Origin: Candidatus Levybacteria bacterium RIFCSPHIGHO2_01_FULL_38_26
GTDB lineage: Bacteria; Patescibacteriota; Microgenomatia; Levybacterales; UBA12049
Assembly: GCA_001782075.1 (NCBI GenBank)
Contig: MFNO01000034.1
Span: forward strand, 1-32,757
Reading direction: 5' to 3'
DNA: 32,757 nucleotides
The translations under genes and the position numbers were made by a program. Each line of letters opens with the position of its first letter. Position 1 is the first letter of the stretch. The notes below the pieces were generated by a model. It was not told the DNA's origin. It worked only from the letters and a program-made list of their open reading frames with translations, and did no database searches. This document shows positions 15,374-22,726 of this stretch, piece after piece.

Positions 15374-15415
15374 ATGATTTAAATCATTGCAATGTGACAT
15401 TATCTGCTTTATGAT
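15374..15415 (+). promoter_or_regulatory. FNR-like palindrome with -35/-10 of Cys-rich copper-island operon
   Basis: ATGATTTAAATCAT (15374-15387) is a perfect 14-bp palindrome matching TTGAT-N4-ATCAA at eight of ten positions. TTGCAA (15387-15392), a 17-nt spacer and TATGAT (15410-15415) form the promoter. The box centre is 29.5 bp before the -10, exactly as at 11765, giving about -41.5 for a start near 15422. Confidence 0.6.
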
Positions 15416-15448: not shown

Positions 15449-15586
15449 ATGATGGGACAGTGGGGATATGGAGACATGATGGGCTGGGGCGGAGGAAATC
15501 TTTTGGGATTCCTATTCTTGATTTTAGTTCTTGTTAATCTAATTCTTCTTGCCGTTTGGCTTTGGAAACAGGTTCAGAAGAAATGA
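15449..15586 (+). CDS. Tiny Met/Trp/Gly-rich membrane protein (45 aa)
   Basis: ATG at 15449 with Shine-Dalgarno GGGAGGTG (15433-15440) opens 45 codons. Residues 1-16 (MMGQWGYGDMMGWGGG) are very rich in Met, Trp and Gly, followed by one membrane helix (18-38) and a basic tail KQVQKK. Four Met and three Trp outside the helix could offer soft-metal ligands. Similar tiny MMG/W proteins occur near copper genes in other bacteria. It heads a three-gene unit; the next gene starts 3 nt after its stop. Confidence 0.75.
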   Translation: MMGQWGYGDMMGWGGGNLLGFLFLILVLVNLILLAVWLWKQVQKK

Positions 15587-15589
15587 CAA

Positions 15590-15859
15590 ATGGTTAGTAA
15601 GCTATTTTTTGTTCTATTAGCACTTGTAGCGCTAGTGGGTGGGAATACTTTGCTTGGAATTGCAGGCAGCGGTTGCGCGGCGTGCGGCCTGCCTGTTTTC
15701 TCTATCCTTGGTTTAAGCGGAAGCATTCTTGCTTTACCCTTCCATGGTCTTGAACTTTCATATTTGGCGGTCGTTCTTTTGTCAATTTCTTTTTATCTTT
15801 TATTAAGATCGGTTTTTGAAAAAGAATACTGCGCGATTCCATTGAGAAAAAACATATGA
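15590..15859 (+). CDS. Small membrane protein with GCAACG (CxxC) motif
   Basis: This 89-residue protein has about three hydrophobic segments. Its notable motif is SGCAACGLPVFSILGLSG (Cys29, Cys32), with His52 in LPFHGLELSYLA and Cys81 near the C-terminus. A membrane CxxC plus His suggests metal transfer or redox activity, but I recognise no named family. It starts 3 nt after the tiny Met/Trp protein and overlaps the Cys-rich gene by 4 nt (ATGA), so the three genes form one translational unit. Confidence 0.75.
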   Translation: MVSKLFFVLLALVALVGGNTLLGIAGSGCAACGLPVFSILGLSGSILALPFHGLELSYLAVVLLSISFYLLLRSVFEKEYCAIPLRKNI

Positions 15860-16431
15860 AGAAAAATCTTTTACTATTCACACTGCTTATTCTTACAGGT
15901 TTCCTTGGTTATATGGCGTTTTTTTGGAATGGAGAACCTTCGGAAAAAGGCACAATTAACAATCCGTTGTTTGCTCGCTTTCAAGTTTTGGCTTCGGAAG
16001 GGAATTCTTCCTGTTCGGGAGCATTTACTGATTCTATATCCTCAATGACGGATGATTCCAGAATCAAAGGCTCCTGCTGCAGCCCTATGAGTTGGCATAG
16101 ATACGAGGAGCAGGTGGAGGGATTGAAAAAATATAAAGATATTTCTGAAATTCCACCTGATCCTTACGATATAGACGCCGAACTTGCCAAGAAATTAAAG
16201 AGTCATTATGATGATGTGCTTTCAGAAGAAGAACAAAAAGCATATGACTACGCAATGGCAAATTCTCACGAGAAAGGACCGTGCTGCTGCAAATGTTGGC
16301 GATGGTATGTTTATGGAGGACTGGCAAAGTTTTTGATTAAAGAAAAGGGTTTTGGTGGAGAGCAAATTACAGAAGTTTGGAATCTCTCGGACGGTTGCGG
16401 AGGAGAAGGAGACCACGTAGACCATTCTTAA
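15856..16431 (+). CDS. Cys-rich extracytoplasmic protein, unknown
   Basis: This 191-residue protein has a signal or anchor (3-23) and then a soluble domain with eight cysteines: Cys53, Cys74-Cys75 in KGSCCSPMSWHRY, Cys143-Cys145 and Cys147 in KGPCCCKCWRWYVYGGLAKF, and Cys181, with His187 and His190 near the end. Between the clusters is a conserved-looking IPPDPYDIDAELAKKLKSHY. I recognise no Pfam family by eye. The ligand density suggests binding of copper or another soft metal outside the membrane. It is translationally coupled to the CxxC membrane protein, and a multicopper oxidase follows. Confidence 0.75.
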   Translation: MKKNLLLFTLLILTGFLGYMAFFWNGEPSEKGTINNPLFARFQVLASEGNSSCSGAFTDSISSMTDDSRIKGSCCSPMSWHRYEEQVEGLKKYKDISEIPPDPYDIDAELAKKLKSHYDDVLSEEEQKAYDYAMANSHEKGPCCCKCWRWYVYGGLAKFLIKEKGFGGEQITEVWNLSDGCGGEGDHVDHS

Positions 16432-16456: not shown

Positions 16457-18010
16457 ATGAGCAAAGCGAATAGAATATTTATTGCAATTCTTATTGGGAT
16501 AGTTTTGATTGGCTTGGGAGTATATTTCTATGTTGGTAAATTTTCATCTCCAACAAATTTTCCATTGGTAAAAGAGCATGAAATAGTAGAGCTTAGAGAT
16601 GGTCAAAGTTATGATATTACTGCGAGTTTTGTGATAAATGAAATAAACGGTCAGAGAGTAAAGATGCTTGCTTATAACGGTTCGATTCCCGGTCCTTTGA
16701 TAAAAGTTCCTCAAGAGGCAGAAATAACGATAAATTTCAAAAATGATGCCGATGTTGATTCGACTATTCATTCTCACGGAATAAGAGCAGAGAACAAATT
16801 TGACGGAGTTCCCGATGTGACTCAGAAACCGGTTAAACCGGGAGAGAGTTTTACCTATAAACTAAAATTTCCGGACGCTGGAGTTTACTGGTATCATCCT
16901 CATGTACGTGAAGATTATGCTCAGGAATTAGGGCTCTATGGGAATTTTATAGTCACGCCAAACGAGAAAGATTATTGGGCAGAGGTTGATCGGGAAGAGG
17001 CAATTTTTTTGGACGATATTCTTATGCTAGATGGACAGATTGCGCAGTTTAATAAAGATATAGTAGATCACACGCTTATGGGAAGATTTGGTAATGTAAT
17101 GCTTGTGAATGGGAGAGATGATTATAAATTGGACATCAAGCAAGGAGAAAGAGTTCGGTTTTATGTTACAAATTCTGCCAACACAAGGGTTTTCAACTTT
17201 TCTATTCCCAATACCCGCATGAAATTGGTTGGAGGAGACAATGGTAAATACGAGCGTGAAGAATGGGTCGAATCAGTAATTTTAGGGCCATCAGAGCGAG
17301 CAGTTGTGGAGATTTGGTTTGAGGAGAATGGAGAATATCAAATTGTACACAAGACGCCTGATAAAACTTATGAGATGGGAATAATTGCGGTTGCAGAACA
17401 ACCTGTTACTGTTTCTTATCTTTTAATCCCTAGAGAAAATCAGGATTTTATCGATTCTCTTAATTCTATCCGTTCTCTTTTTGGAAAACCTGCTGATAGA
17501 GCCTTAAATTTAACAATCGACATGATGGGTGGAATGACGAGTCAAGAAGGTGGGCATATGATGCCGGATGGATCTATGATGAGTAATAGCATGATGATGG
17601 GAGATTCAGATGAAAAAATTGAATGGGAAGATGAGATGGGCATGATGAACGCGATGTCTACAAACAAGACTTTAAAATGGAAACTGGTTGATGGTGAGAG
17701 CAGAAAAGAAAATATGGATATTGATTGGGAATTCAAAAAAGGAGATAAAGTAAAACTAAAACTTTTTAACGATCCCGAATCAGACCATCCAATGCAGCAC
17801 CCGATTCATATTCACGGTCAACGCTTTCTGGTCGTAAAAACAAATGGAGTCCAAAACCAAAATCTGGTATGGAAAGATACGGTTTTAGTTCAAAAAGGAG
17901 ACACTGTTGAATTACTGGTTGACATGGATAATCCAGGAGATTGGCTTGTCCATTGTCATATTCCGGAACATATGGAATCTGGCATGATGAGCGAATTTAA
18001 AGTAATTTAA
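16457..18010 (+). CDS. Multicopper oxidase (CueO-like), membrane-anchored
   Basis: This 517-residue protein has an N-terminal anchor (7-27) and cupredoxin domains. All copper motifs are present: HSHG (His105, His107), WYHPHV (His147, His149), HPIHIHG (His448, His451, His453), and HCHIPEHMESGM (His499, Cys500, His501, His505, Met510). The trinuclear and type 1 centres are therefore complete. A Met-rich insert (356-400, for example MMPDGSMMSNSMMMGD) resembles the Cu(I)-oxidase segment of CueO. The likely job is oxidation of toxic Cu(I) outside the membrane, using O2. It has no Tat motif. It sits between the Cys-rich set and the csoR/copB genes. Confidence 0.94.
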   Translation: MSKANRIFIAILIGIVLIGLGVYFYVGKFSSPTNFPLVKEHEIVELRDGQSYDITASFVINEINGQRVKMLAYNGSIPGPLIKVPQEAEITINFKNDADVDSTIHSHGIRAENKFDGVPDVTQKPVKPGESFTYKLKFPDAGVYWYHPHVREDYAQELGLYGNFIVTPNEKDYWAEVDREEAIFLDDILMLDGQIAQFNKDIVDHTLMGRFGNVMLVNGRDDYKLDIKQGERVRFYVTNSANTRVFNFSIPNTRMKLVGGDNGKYEREEWVESVILGPSERAVVEIWFEENGEYQIVHKTPDKTYEMGIIAVAEQPVTVSYLLIPRENQDFIDSLNSIRSLFGKPADRALNLTIDMMGGMTSQEGGHMMPDGSMMSNSMMMGDSDEKIEWEDEMGMMNAMSTNKTLKWKLVDGESRKENMDIDWEFKKGDKVKLKLFNDPESDHPMQHPIHIHGQRFLVVKTNGVQNQNLVWKDTVLVQKGDTVELLVDMDNPGDWLVHCHIPEHMESGMMSEFKVI

Positions 18011-18957: not shown

Positions 18958-18986
18958 TTGACAAATCCCCCTAGGGGGGATATAAT
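18958..18986 (+). promoter_or_regulatory. Consensus promoter with CsoR-type operator in the spacer
   Basis: TTGACA (18958-18963), a 17-nt spacer, and TATAAT (18981-18986) form a perfect sigma70-type promoter. ATCCCCCTAGGGGGGAT (18965-18981), with a perfect 12-bp core palindrome CCCCCTAGGGGG, fills the spacer. G/C-tract palindromes around TA are known CsoR operators, so bound CsoR would block polymerase. The ATG at 18995 is 8 nt from the -10. Confidence 0.88.
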
Positions 18987-19341: not shown

Positions 19342-19572
19342 GTGAAAAACATTGATGAAATGATGTATGAATTGCCGATAGTTGGTATTGTGATGAGAAG
19401 AAATTATGCCTATTTCAAACAAAATACGGCTATAGCCAATTTGATGCACATAACATTTGGTCTTGGAATAGGATTGCTTTTAGCAAACAGGGATTTATTG
19501 GGATTAGGATTAATATTTATTTTCATAAGTCTTTCGGGTCATATTTATGCGTTCGTGAAAGGAGGGAAATAA
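19342..19572 (+). CDS. Small membrane protein, unknown (76 aa)
   Basis: GTG at 19342 follows a strong AAAGGGAGGTGATTTT. The 76 residues hold two membrane segments (about 33-50 and 53-72) after a polar N-terminus MKNIDEMMYELPIVGIVMRR. I cannot assign a family. It lies between csoR and the flavin reductase, 5 nt before the latter, so it is part of the copper unit. Confidence 0.7.
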   Translation: MKNIDEMMYELPIVGIVMRRNYAYFKQNTAIANLMHITFGLGIGLLLANRDLLGLGLIFIFISLSGHIYAFVKGGK

Positions 19573-19577
19573 GAAAC

Positions 19578-20642
19578 ATGCATGGACACTTTCCGCCTAA
19601 TCATTCTGGATCTTCAATGAAGAAGGTGGCATTTGAAGTCGCTTTGAAGGGTAAAAAACAAATAGCAAAGGGAACGATGGCTTTTGTTTTTGAGAAGCCG
19701 AAAGGGTTTCATTTTAGAGCAGGCCAGCATATACGAATGACTCTCATTGGTCCTCCTGCCAGCCCGCCTGCCGAGCAGAGCGAGGCGGCCAGGGAAACAG
19801 ATAGCGAGGGCAACAGTCGATTTTTTTCACTTGCAAATTCTCCCCAAGAAAAAGAATTGGTTATCGCGCTCAGAATGCGGGATACGGCATTCAAAAGAAC
19901 TCTTAGAAATATGCAAATTGGAGACAAAGTACGCATAGAGATACTACTGGATAGTCCGCACGGATCATTTGCAATGCATGATGATTCTTCAATTCCAGCG
20001 GTTTTCTTGATCGGAGGAATCGGAATAGTTCCCGCGTTCTCTATGATCAAAGACGCAATAGAAAGAAAACTGCCGCATAAAATCTTTTTGTTCTATTCAA
20101 ACAGGCGGCCGGAGGACGCTGCGTTTTTAGGGGAGCTTAAAAATTTGGCAAAACAAAACCCCTCCTTCAAATTAATTTCAACCATGACTGAGGTCCAAAA
20201 GTCAGCAGTAGCATGGCGAGGAGAAACTGGATATATAGATTACGAGATGCTAAAAAGATATGTGGATGATCTTAAGTCCCCGATTTATTATATTTCGGGA
20301 CTGCCGGAAATGGTTAGCTCGATGAAGACAATGCTTACAGACGAAGGCATAAGTGAAAACAATATACGCGCTGAAGAGTTTACAGGATTCAATCTGAATG
20401 AAATTCAAAATTCCACCAATCAAAACAGGAAGAGCCATTTTGCACTCATTGCAGTAGTATTGGTTATCTTCGTGGTGGCTGTTCTGCACTTCTTTGCCGC
20501 TAGTTCAGTATTCAAATCAGGCATTGATACACCCTTCCTTAAAAATCCGATTTTCTATTTCATGATTGTTTTAATACTTATCGTTATTCCGTTCAAGTTT
20601 AAGCATTTACTGGGTTTCATGAATAGTAAAAGGAAAAAATAA
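19578..20642 (+). CDS. Flavin reductase-like (FNR-fold) protein with C-terminal membrane tail
   Basis: This 354-residue protein has an FAD-binding domain (HFRAGQHIRMTL at 45-56, RFFSLANSP at 81-89) and an NAD(P)-binding domain (VFLIGGIGIVPAFSMI at 142-157, YYISGLPEMV). Two membrane helices follow (289-310, 325-341), which is unusual for the family. No Fe-S domain is present. It could pass electrons from NAD(P)H to a membrane acceptor. Residues 61-72 (ASPPAEQSEAAR) interrupt the usual MTLIGPP-ETDSEGN link and come from an 81% GC insert at 19758-19793. ATG at 19617 is an alternative start. Confidence 0.85.
   Translation: MHGHFPPNHSGSSMKKVAFEVALKGKKQIAKGTMAFVFEKPKGFHFRAGQHIRMTLIGPPASPPAEQSEAARETDSEGNSRFFSLANSPQEKELVIALRMRDTAFKRTLRNMQIGDKVRIEILLDSPHGSFAMHDDSSIPAVFLIGGIGIVPAFSMIKDAIERKLPHKIFLFYSNRRPEDAAFLGELKNLAKQNPSFKLISTMTEVQKSAVAWRGETGYIDYEMLKRYVDDLKSPIYYISGLPEMVSSMKTMLTDEGISENNIRAEEFTGFNLNEIQNSTNQNRKSHFALIAVVLVIFVVAVLHFFAASSVFKSGIDTPFLKNPIFYFMIVLILIVIPFKFKHLLGFMNSKRKK
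19758..19793 (+). repeat. 36-bp GC-rich in-frame insert, repeat-like
   Basis: The 36 bp encode twelve extra codons between GPP and ETDSEGN of the flavin-binding domain, where relatives usually read PPETDAEGN directly. They are 29/36 G or C in an AT-rich gene and imperfectly palindromic (CCTGCC.AGCCCGCCT against AGGCGGCCAGG). This suits a mobile palindromic repeat tolerated as coding sequence. Confidence 0.6.
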
Positions 20643-20653
20643 TTGCAAAAACT

Positions 20654-22726
20654 GTGAAAACTTATACCTGTCCGATGGATCCGGATGTTGTCAGTGAAAA
20701 ACCGGGAGATTGTCCTAAGTGCGGAATGAAGCTGGTTCAGATGGCATCCTCTCATGAGGATCATGGAGAACATCATGCTTCGATGGAAATTGAGTTTAGG
20801 AACCGTTTTTTTATCACTCTTCCTTTTGTAATTCTCGCGATTATCCTGTCACCGAATATCCAAAAATGGCTTCATTTCAATCTTGATTTTTTCGGGCGTG
20901 AACTTGTACTTTTTGCAATTGGCACTTTTATATTTTTTATAGGTGGAATTCCTTTTTTTAAAGCAGCAAGAGGCGAAATTTCGCACAAAAATCCCGGAAT
21001 GATGACTCTTGTAGCATTTGCTATAACTGTCGGGTACACATTTTCTGTTGCCGCGACTTTTCTTTTTCCCGGAGAATCACTATATTGGGAGATCGCGACG
21101 CTTATTTCTGTTTTTTTACTCGGACACTGGCTTGAGATGCGGGCTGTCAGGGGTACAACAGGCGCACTTTCCGAGCTTGCAAAACTCATACCGATTCAGG
21201 CTCACTTATTAAAGAACGGAAAAATAAGCGACGTTAAAACAAGTGAGGTTCAGATTGGGGACAGGCTTTTGGTAAAGCCTGGTGAAAAAGTTCCGATTGA
21301 CGGGATAGTAATTGAAGGTGAGAGTTCTGTTAATGAGTCGATGGTGACTGGAGAATCACGGCCTGTTGGCAAAAGAAAAGAGGACAAGGTAATAGGAGGG
21401 ACTCTGAATCAAGACGGATCACTTACAATTGAGATTTCAAAGACCGGATCGGATACCGCTATTTCTCAGATCATGAAACTCATCCGTGAAGCGCAAGGAT
21501 CAAAACCGAATGTTCAGCATTTGGCAGATCAGGCAGCAGGAATACTATTTTATATTGCGGTTTTTGCCGGGATGGGCTCATTTATTTTCTGGCTTTTTTT
21601 ATTTCCTCATGGCGCAATCTTTGCCGCGACAATCGCGGTCGCGGTTGTTGTTGTTGCCTGTCCTCATGCTTTGGGTCTTGCGATTCCGACGGTCACGACT
21701 ATCACATCAACGCTTGGCGCCAAAAATGGGATTTTGATAAAGGATATGAAAGGTCTTGAGATAGCCAGAAAGGTTAATTACGTTGTTTTTGACAAAACAG
21801 GAACATTGACAAAAGGAGAGTTTGGAGTCTCAGAAATCATAATTAATTCAAAATTCAGAATTCAGAATTTAGAATTGTTGAGGTTGGCTGCCGGGATCGA
21901 AAGTCATTCTCAACACTCAATTGCTCAAGGAATCATAAAGGAGGCAGAGGATAAAAAATTAAAAATACCGGATGTTGAAAATTTTAAATCCTTTCCCGGA
22001 CGAGGCGCGACCGGCGCCATTGATAACAACAGAGTTACAGTTGGAAATTCAAGAATGATGAGAGATGAGGGAATTAAAGAGGATGCAATTAAAAAACTTA
22101 AGACAACAAGAGTCGGAACTATAGTATATGTGGCAGTTGATAAAGAATTAACAGGCGCTCTTGTGTTGTCGGATCTTATTCGGGATGAATCAAAAGAAGC
22201 GATTGAAAAACTGCACGGGATGGGAATAAAAGTGGCGATGCTTACAGGAGATGTTAAAGATGTTGCGGATGACGTAGGGAGGAAATTAAATTTAGATACT
22301 GTTTTTTCGCAAGTTTTGCCTGATGACAAAGTAAATAAGGTGCGGGAGCTTCAAAGAGATGGAAATATTGTCGCAATGGTTGGAGATGGCGTGAATGATG
22401 CTCCGTCTTTGACTCAGGCACATGTTGGGATCGCGATCGGAGCAGGAACAGATGTCGCGGTAGAGTCCGCCGATATAGTTCTTATGAAAAATAATCCGAT
22501 GGATGTTGTAAAAGCGATATCTCTTAGTCGAAAGACAAACGATAAAATGGTGCAAAATCTTGTCTGGGCTACAGGATACAATGTTTTTGCAATTCCAACT
22601 GCCGCAGGAATTCTTTATCCGTCGTTTGGCGTACTTCTTCGTCCGGAATGGGCGGCGATTCTGATGAGCGCCTCATCAATAATTGTTGTATTCAACGCTC
22701 TTCTTTTACGCAGGACCACGTTATGA
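20654..22726 (+). CDS. copB: Copper P1B-type ATPase, CopB-like
   Basis: This 690-residue protein has a short N-terminal metal-binding motif (TCPMDPDVV then CPKCGM; Cys6, Cys20, Cys23) and a His-rich strip (34-41). TGES is at 232-235, the membrane motif is CPH at 336-338 (ACPHALGLAIP), phosphorylation is at Asp380 in DKTGTLTKG, and the hinge is MVGDGVNDAP (576-585). CPH with C-terminal GYN and MSASSIIVVFNA is typical of CopB-type copper exporters. The normally conserved HP is HS (His421-Ser422 in SHSQHSIAQ). A repeat-derived segment lies at 398-408. The start is GTG, 11 nt after the previous stop, with no Shine-Dalgarno. Confidence 0.92.
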   Translation: MKTYTCPMDPDVVSEKPGDCPKCGMKLVQMASSHEDHGEHHASMEIEFRNRFFITLPFVILAIILSPNIQKWLHFNLDFFGRELVLFAIGTFIFFIGGIPFFKAARGEISHKNPGMMTLVAFAITVGYTFSVAATFLFPGESLYWEIATLISVFLLGHWLEMRAVRGTTGALSELAKLIPIQAHLLKNGKISDVKTSEVQIGDRLLVKPGEKVPIDGIVIEGESSVNESMVTGESRPVGKRKEDKVIGGTLNQDGSLTIEISKTGSDTAISQIMKLIREAQGSKPNVQHLADQAAGILFYIAVFAGMGSFIFWLFLFPHGAIFAATIAVAVVVVACPHALGLAIPTVTTITSTLGAKNGILIKDMKGLEIARKVNYVVFDKTGTLTKGEFGVSEIIINSKFRIQNLELLRLAAGIESHSQHSIAQGIIKEAEDKKLKIPDVENFKSFPGRGATGAIDNNRVTVGNSRMMRDEGIKEDAIKKLKTTRVGTIVYVAVDKELTGALVLSDLIRDESKEAIEKLHGMGIKVAMLTGDVKDVADDVGRKLNLDTVFSQVLPDDKVNKVRELQRDGNIVAMVGDGVNDAPSLTQAHVGIAIGAGTDVAVESADIVLMKNNPMDVVKAISLSRKTNDKMVQNLVWATGYNVFAIPTAAGILYPSFGVLLRPEWAAILMSASSIIVVFNALLLRRTTL
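21845..21876 (+). repeat. Tandem AATTCA-type repeat inside copB
   Basis: Four consecutive units, roughly AATTCAA, AATTCAG, AATTCAG and AATTTAG, encode NSKFRIQNLEL in a surface loop between the phosphorylation site and the nucleotide-binding domain. The reading frame is kept. The low-complexity repeat contrasts with the rest of the gene and may be an inserted dispersed repeat. Confidence 0.5.

Follow-up and report, generated by a model that had tools for sequence, protein, structure and literature searches.

The stretch of DNA analysed here (the window; 32,757 nucleotides of a Candidatus Levybacteria contig, MFNO01000034.1) carries within a copper island a short gene set whose core encodes C191, a membrane-anchored extracytoplasmic protein of 191 aa with eight Cys (15856-16431, + strand), which we rate as belonging to a new and uncharacterised family, though one of a familiar functional type. 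The copper linkage, the invariant thiols and the MerT-like membrane partner (family B) of C191 point to soft-metal capture at the outer face of the membrane. On this evidence, which is drawn from sequence comparison, we give about even chances to the reading that C191 is an extracytoplasmic soft-metal capture protein working with its partner B, in this island for Cu(I) from the exporter CopA.

Three short genes, all on the + strand, occupy positions 15449-16431, as described in an earlier note on this DNA, and encode proteins of 45 aa (A45, 15449-15586), 89 aa (B89, 15590-15859) and 191 aa (C191). They stand before a gene for a multicopper oxidase (MCO) of the CopA/CueO type (16457-18010, + strand), the probable co-transcribed partner. 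The translational coupling proposed in that note is real, with a 3-nt gap between the A45 stop and the B89 start, a 4-nt overlap of B89 and C191 (ATGA at 15856-15859), and 25 nt between C191 and the oxidase. The three ORFs are not a chance pattern, since a scan of GTDB genomes with six peptide patterns, a procedure that favours close relatives, gave 84 confirmed C191 relatives (80 loci kept), the best of them 71-74% identical. The same note had treated the trio as a unit, and in this it did not hold up: only the 89/191 pair is conserved, with a B protein in 50 of 81 loci, mostly abutting C191, while relatives of the 45-aa gene occur in about 8 loci.

To judge from its ORF call and its relatives, A45 is an optional companion, a Met/Trp/Gly-rich membrane peptide with one strong hydrophobic helix (residues 18-36). 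Its relatives are free-standing in loci L001 and L038, and an A45-type Met-Gly helix forms the tail of longer Met-rich secreted proteins in L005, L046, L058, L065, L071 and L072, some of which contain SHOCT. A45 and B89 share one reading frame, separated by a single TGA; given the complete, separate copies in L001, this is probably chance. Stop-codon readthrough fusing the two was judged unlikely, as L001 has a complete A45 gene 2.2 kb from a complete B. A perfect 14-bp palindrome, ATGATTTAAATCAT (15374-15387), lies between a divergent PNPOx-like gene and A45 and is a possible operator; no second copy within two mismatches was found across the window.

C191 begins with a hydrophobic helix (residues 5-23), and its Cys are arranged as C, CC, CCCxC and C. 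The earlier note had drawn attention to the Cys clusters, and they proved to be conserved throughout: all eight (Cys53, 74, 75, 143, 144, 145, 147 and 181) are invariant across an alignment of 77 bacterial and archaeal sequences, as are K146, W148, R149, W150, M78, P100, D102 and P103. The stretch GPCCCKCWRW is nearly invariant, and rhizobial copies carry Q instead of K146. The bacterial holders of C191 are many patescibacterial phyla, Chloroflexota, Devosia and another Hyphomicrobiales bacterium (Alphaproteobacteria), and its archaeal holders belong to the DPANN (Woesearchaeota, Aenigmatarchaeota, Pacearchaeota, Micrarchaeota) and the Nitrososphaeria (Nitrosotenuis, Nitrosotalea, Nitrosarchaeum). 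Homologues were also found in 13 plasmid records; 11 of these come from Sinorhizobium, Ensifer or Microvirga, and in two the match is short. The phyla are intermixed in the C191 tree, and this, together with the distribution, fits horizontal transfer, without proving it. The alphaproteobacterial copies (L095, 6935-7600; L059, 4916-5485) have twin-arginine-like leaders (SRRDLSF and NRRALIL), which would mean that these proteins fold before export.

That the 191-aa protein falls outside the named families, as had been suspected, was borne out, no Pfam or NCBIfam model matching it above its cut-off. Scans of the single sequences assigned A45 and B89 to no Pfam or NCBIfam family either. The AF2 model of C191 (mean pLDDT 90.2, pTM 0.78) is of high confidence and helical except for two short strands; its comparison with the PDB by Foldseek gave nothing below E 2.9, and a profile search against PDB entries gave no match. 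The open literature that was searched yielded no experiment on any member, and nothing relevant on the motifs or on DUF5714.

The proteins of family B, typically about 180 aa (about 160-200 aa), are membrane proteins that stand directly before or after C191, and in L003 B and C191 are encoded as one fused protein; in a joint alignment this fusion was misaligned with the rows of separate B and C191 proteins, and it was left out of structure prediction. Their CxxC is invariant and, with the topology estimated from hydropathy alone, placed in a helix, and a C-terminal Cys is present in over 90% of members. B89, a shortened member with GCAACG inside a hydrophobic segment, matches no Pfam family above its cut-off, the MerT (PF02411) gathering cut-off included. 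A distant relationship of family B to MerT is nevertheless suggested by profile comparison (hhalign), which gave P 3.7e-5 (probability 71%) for B and P 1.4e-5 (80%) for a B-X fusion, against a background whose best value among 40 families was P 1.4e-3 and a positive control of known relatives, MerT and MerF, at P 3.5e-9 (96%). The similarity spans about 70 columns. Among 9,667 ORFs from these loci, B or B-fusion proteins made up five of the six that a MerT model ranked highest, and one of 24 B members matches PF02411 in Pfam (E 2e-4). MerC (PF03203) and MerE (PF05052) were rejected as identities of B (profile probability about 0.1%; the MerE profile consisted of two sequences, one with a doubtful frame).

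The fusion partner X is an unnamed Cys-rich domain of about 300 aa (RPCCxNSTxFxDCNHG, with a GGGxCGV end), which occurs near C191, free or fused to B (L003, 10880-11854; L009, 6615-8084; about 29 more loci), the B-X fusion being present in over 20 loci. Domain X has no PDB or Pfam match, and a structure model of a B-X fusion (mean pLDDT 77) found none in the PDB.

The remainder of the copper island lies downstream on the + strand. A perfect TTGACA-17-TATAAT promoter (18958-18986) precedes the gene for a CsoR-type copper-sensing repressor (PF02583; 18995-19264) and encloses a G/C palindrome, ATCCCCCTAGGGGGGAT (18965-18981), which is likely the CsoR operator and has three weaker matches elsewhere in the genome. 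A 76-aa membrane protein of no family (19342-19572) and an FNR-like NAD-binding flavoprotein reductase (19578-20642), which could be a metal reductase, are encoded between csoR and the gene for the copper-exporting P1B-type ATPase CopA (20654-22726; above the TIGR01511 cut-off). Counted against a metal role, this CopA lies 4 kb from C191 under the separate CsoR promoter; no CsoR-like operator was found before A45.

Across the loci, the neighbours of C191 fall into a copper class (CopA, CsoR, multicopper oxidase), a mercury class (MerA, ArsR, MerC-like) and a thiol-redox class (DsbA, CcdA). Copper or mercury genes stand near C191 in 38 of 81 loci; the other 43, many of them on short contigs, have no such marker within 6 kb, which also counts against the metal reading. 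CopA is directly beside C191 in eight loci of both domains (gaps of -24 to +41 nt), including those of Nitrososphaeria, Woesearchaeota, Curtissbacteria and Gottesmanbacteria. Among patescibacterial loci, CopA occurs within 6 kb in 14 of 50, compared with about 0.9 expected from the whole-genome counts of the same genomes, a comparison that ignores the kinship of the loci. Nine loci have MerA within 6 kb, and the four MerA copies that were tested score above the TIGR02053 cut-off. In five loci the first few bases of C191 also belong to the gene of an ArsR-type regulator. Two operon layouts are typical: [BlaI-BlaR]-DsbA-B-C191-H181, with copper genes after it, and ArsR-C191-(B-X), with MerA close by. 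The earlier note's idea of a soft-metal module gains from the copper and mercury linkage and from the MerT-like partner; a thiol-redox role is the less likely alternative.

Several further elements recur in these loci. In three of six loci the BlaI gene is preceded, at a distance of 14-18 nt, by BlaI/CopY-type boxes (TACAATATGTA, TACACTATGTA; L001 about 3384, L004 about 3391, L046 about 1685), of which 0.013 are expected per 160 bp. BlaI-BlaR, missing in the window, would seem to control the fuller operon. H181 is a membrane-anchored His-rich protein (GxHWHP...HTHD; L010, 6578-7105, and 18 other loci) encoded directly 3' of C191 in 13 loci, and Cys141 is a small Met/Cys-containing membrane protein (CPFxAGQxAxCQM, ending in ILNPKIY; L013, 5454-5864, and 14 other loci) encoded upstream of DsbA-B-C191 or of C191; neither has a Pfam family.

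The thiol-redox neighbours bring in the first alternative, that C191 is chiefly a thiol-redox protein which stores no metal, with B, like CcdA, moving electrons across the membrane, the DsbA-like protein swapping disulfides with C191, and C191 repairing or reducing oxidised envelope proteins under copper stress. Of the 81 loci, 28 have a DsbA-like gene and 14 have CcdA; seven of these 14 lack B. On the Sinorhizobium plasmids (order DsbA, CcdA, C191, in copper clusters with SCO, CusA, MCO or DUF411 genes) CcdA occupies the exact position of B. A DsbD/DsbA-type relay serving copper tolerance is moreover known in ScsB/ScsC (PMC8900818). However, B itself has three conserved Cys and not two pairs, and its profile resembles MerT; CcdA/DsbD was rejected as its identity, since two CcdA clusters gave a profile probability of at most 5%. 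Thiol-redox chemistry alone also leaves the linkage to CopA, MCO, CsoR, MerA and ArsR unexplained, and no DsbA adjoins C191 in the window. We regard this alternative as unlikely, although it is the strongest of the rivals.

Less probable still, at a low though real likelihood, is that B and C191 form an uptake pair in the manner of MerT and MerP, C191 catching the metal outside and B importing it, in mercury loci to MerA and in copper loci to either CopA or a buffer in the cytosol. The match of B to MerT takes in the first Cys pair, the B-X fusion adding a second Cys motif after the following helix, and ArsR, C191, B-X and MerA occur together in L007, L009 and L017 (ArsR-C191-MerA in L008). 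Import is, however, hard to square with copper islands, where CopA exports; C191 lacks a MerP-like (HMA) domain, and B89 of the window lacks half of the family B length.

The origin of this short form can be traced by comparison with L001. DNA similarity between the window and L001 begins at 15635; the genes that L001 has between A45 and the corresponding point (BlaI, BlaR, DsbA and the N-terminal half of B) are absent from the window. B89 retains the C-terminal, Cys-bearing core of family B, and its N-terminal stretch (15587-15634) has no detectable match to the full-length B of L001; the deletion junction probably lies within these positions, the new N-terminus being read from there. By this comparison, the B89/C191 pair of the window is a cut-down form of the larger operon DsbA-B-C191-H181. 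That it is a decaying, functionless remnant, stripped of BlaI/BlaR, DsbA, H181 and half of B, is the least probable of the alternatives considered, for although the losses are visible in the DNA and close relatives often lack the gene (it is held by 11 of 73 genomes of the window's own family), the B89 and C191 frames are intact with every Cys kept, and their dN against L001 (0.14 and 0.19, similar to that of the oxidase, with dS saturated) indicates cores evolving under constraint.

Under the soft-metal capture reading, C191, anchored on the outer face of the cytoplasmic membrane, would catch soft, thiophilic ions through its eight invariant Cys. In this island the ion would most likely be Cu(I) delivered by CopA, which C191 might shield or hand over to the adjoining multicopper oxidase for oxidation to Cu(II). 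B89, predicted to be a MerT-like hairpin that holds its CxxC within the membrane and has another Cys, its third, close to the C-terminus, may be the membrane partner through which C191 exchanges soft-metal ions, or possibly reducing equivalents, with the opposite side of the membrane. Where the operon is larger, the DsbA-like protein and, in rhizobia, CcdA replacing B would keep the Cys of C191 reduced.

A broader and more tentative proposal, which we think has somewhat less than an even prospect, is that C191 is the founding member of a poly-thiolate soft-metal protein family with a fold of its own, both of them new, and forms, with its MerT-superfamily partner and the B-X sister fusions, a general extracytoplasmic Cu/Hg system, common to ultra-small bacteria, DPANN, ammonia-oxidising archaea and rhizobial resistance plasmids, and distinct from MerP, CueP, CusF and Csp. 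The GPCCCKCWRW stretch and the eight Cys are almost unchanged between bacteria and archaea, and C191 must therefore do something exacting. Patescibacteria and DPANN have small genomes, yet they hold C191 and appear to exchange the gene. If C191 binds Cu(I) or Hg(II), it would supply a missing extracytoplasmic part of metal resistance in these mostly uncultured groups. The family can be tested at the bench, as it is carried on conjugative plasmids of cultivable Sinorhizobium, including pSinB, a described metal-resistance plasmid (PMC6115938) from a gold mine.

Among known families, DUF5714 (PF18978) shares a short PCCK-like motif with C191, and 15 of 66 C191 members match it weakly (best E 7.6e-4). 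However, the profile match covers 34 columns, the remaining domain being unlike, none of the 66 members reaches the family cut-off, and the window C191 does not match at E 0.1. PCYCGC (PF13798) was not among the matches of the 66 members, nor was it found in ten genomes. A probable distant relative is the likewise unnamed and uncharacterised 'CysX168' family (CEYCCG...ACGCAHSYAMRGLAKYLI), which has profile similarity to C191 in a C-terminal Cys-helix module (probability 93%, P 3.7e-7) but a different Cys spacing, and is represented by three sequences only.

With the mercury systems the resemblance is greatest in the membrane partner. Like MerT and MerF (PF02411, PF11431; profile P 1e-5 to 4e-5), B is predicted, with topology estimated from hydropathy, to be a helix hairpin whose first helix holds a Cys pair and whose second is followed by more Cys, and MerA is encoded in the same locus as some B proteins. 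In MerT, a Cys pair in the first helix passes Hg(II) on to a second pair on the cytoplasmic side (PMC5715351). By contrast, B has CxxC rather than CC, one C-terminal Cys in most members, extra N-terminal helices at full length, and C191 in place of MerP as its partner. MerP, too, is an extracytoplasmic Cys protein beside a MerT-type membrane protein, but C191 differs in its nearly all-helical model and eight Cys, and none of 66 members matched the HMA domain (MerP/HMA, PF00403).

By analogy, the closest known logic for C191 is that of CueP, a periplasmic thiolate copper protein of Salmonella proposed as the acceptor of Cu from CopA (PMC13201067), which interacts with ScsC, itself kept reduced by ScsB (PMC8900818). 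C191, too, is predicted to be an extracytoplasmic thiolate-type protein, and its genetic linkage is to CopA and to a multicopper oxidase; as with CueP, a DsbA-like protein is involved in the full operon, together with a thiol relay in the membrane. Neither the profile search nor Foldseek matched C191 to a solved CueP structure in the PDB, and C191 is set apart from CueP by its different pattern of eight Cys, its membrane anchor and its occurrence in Patescibacteria and archaea.
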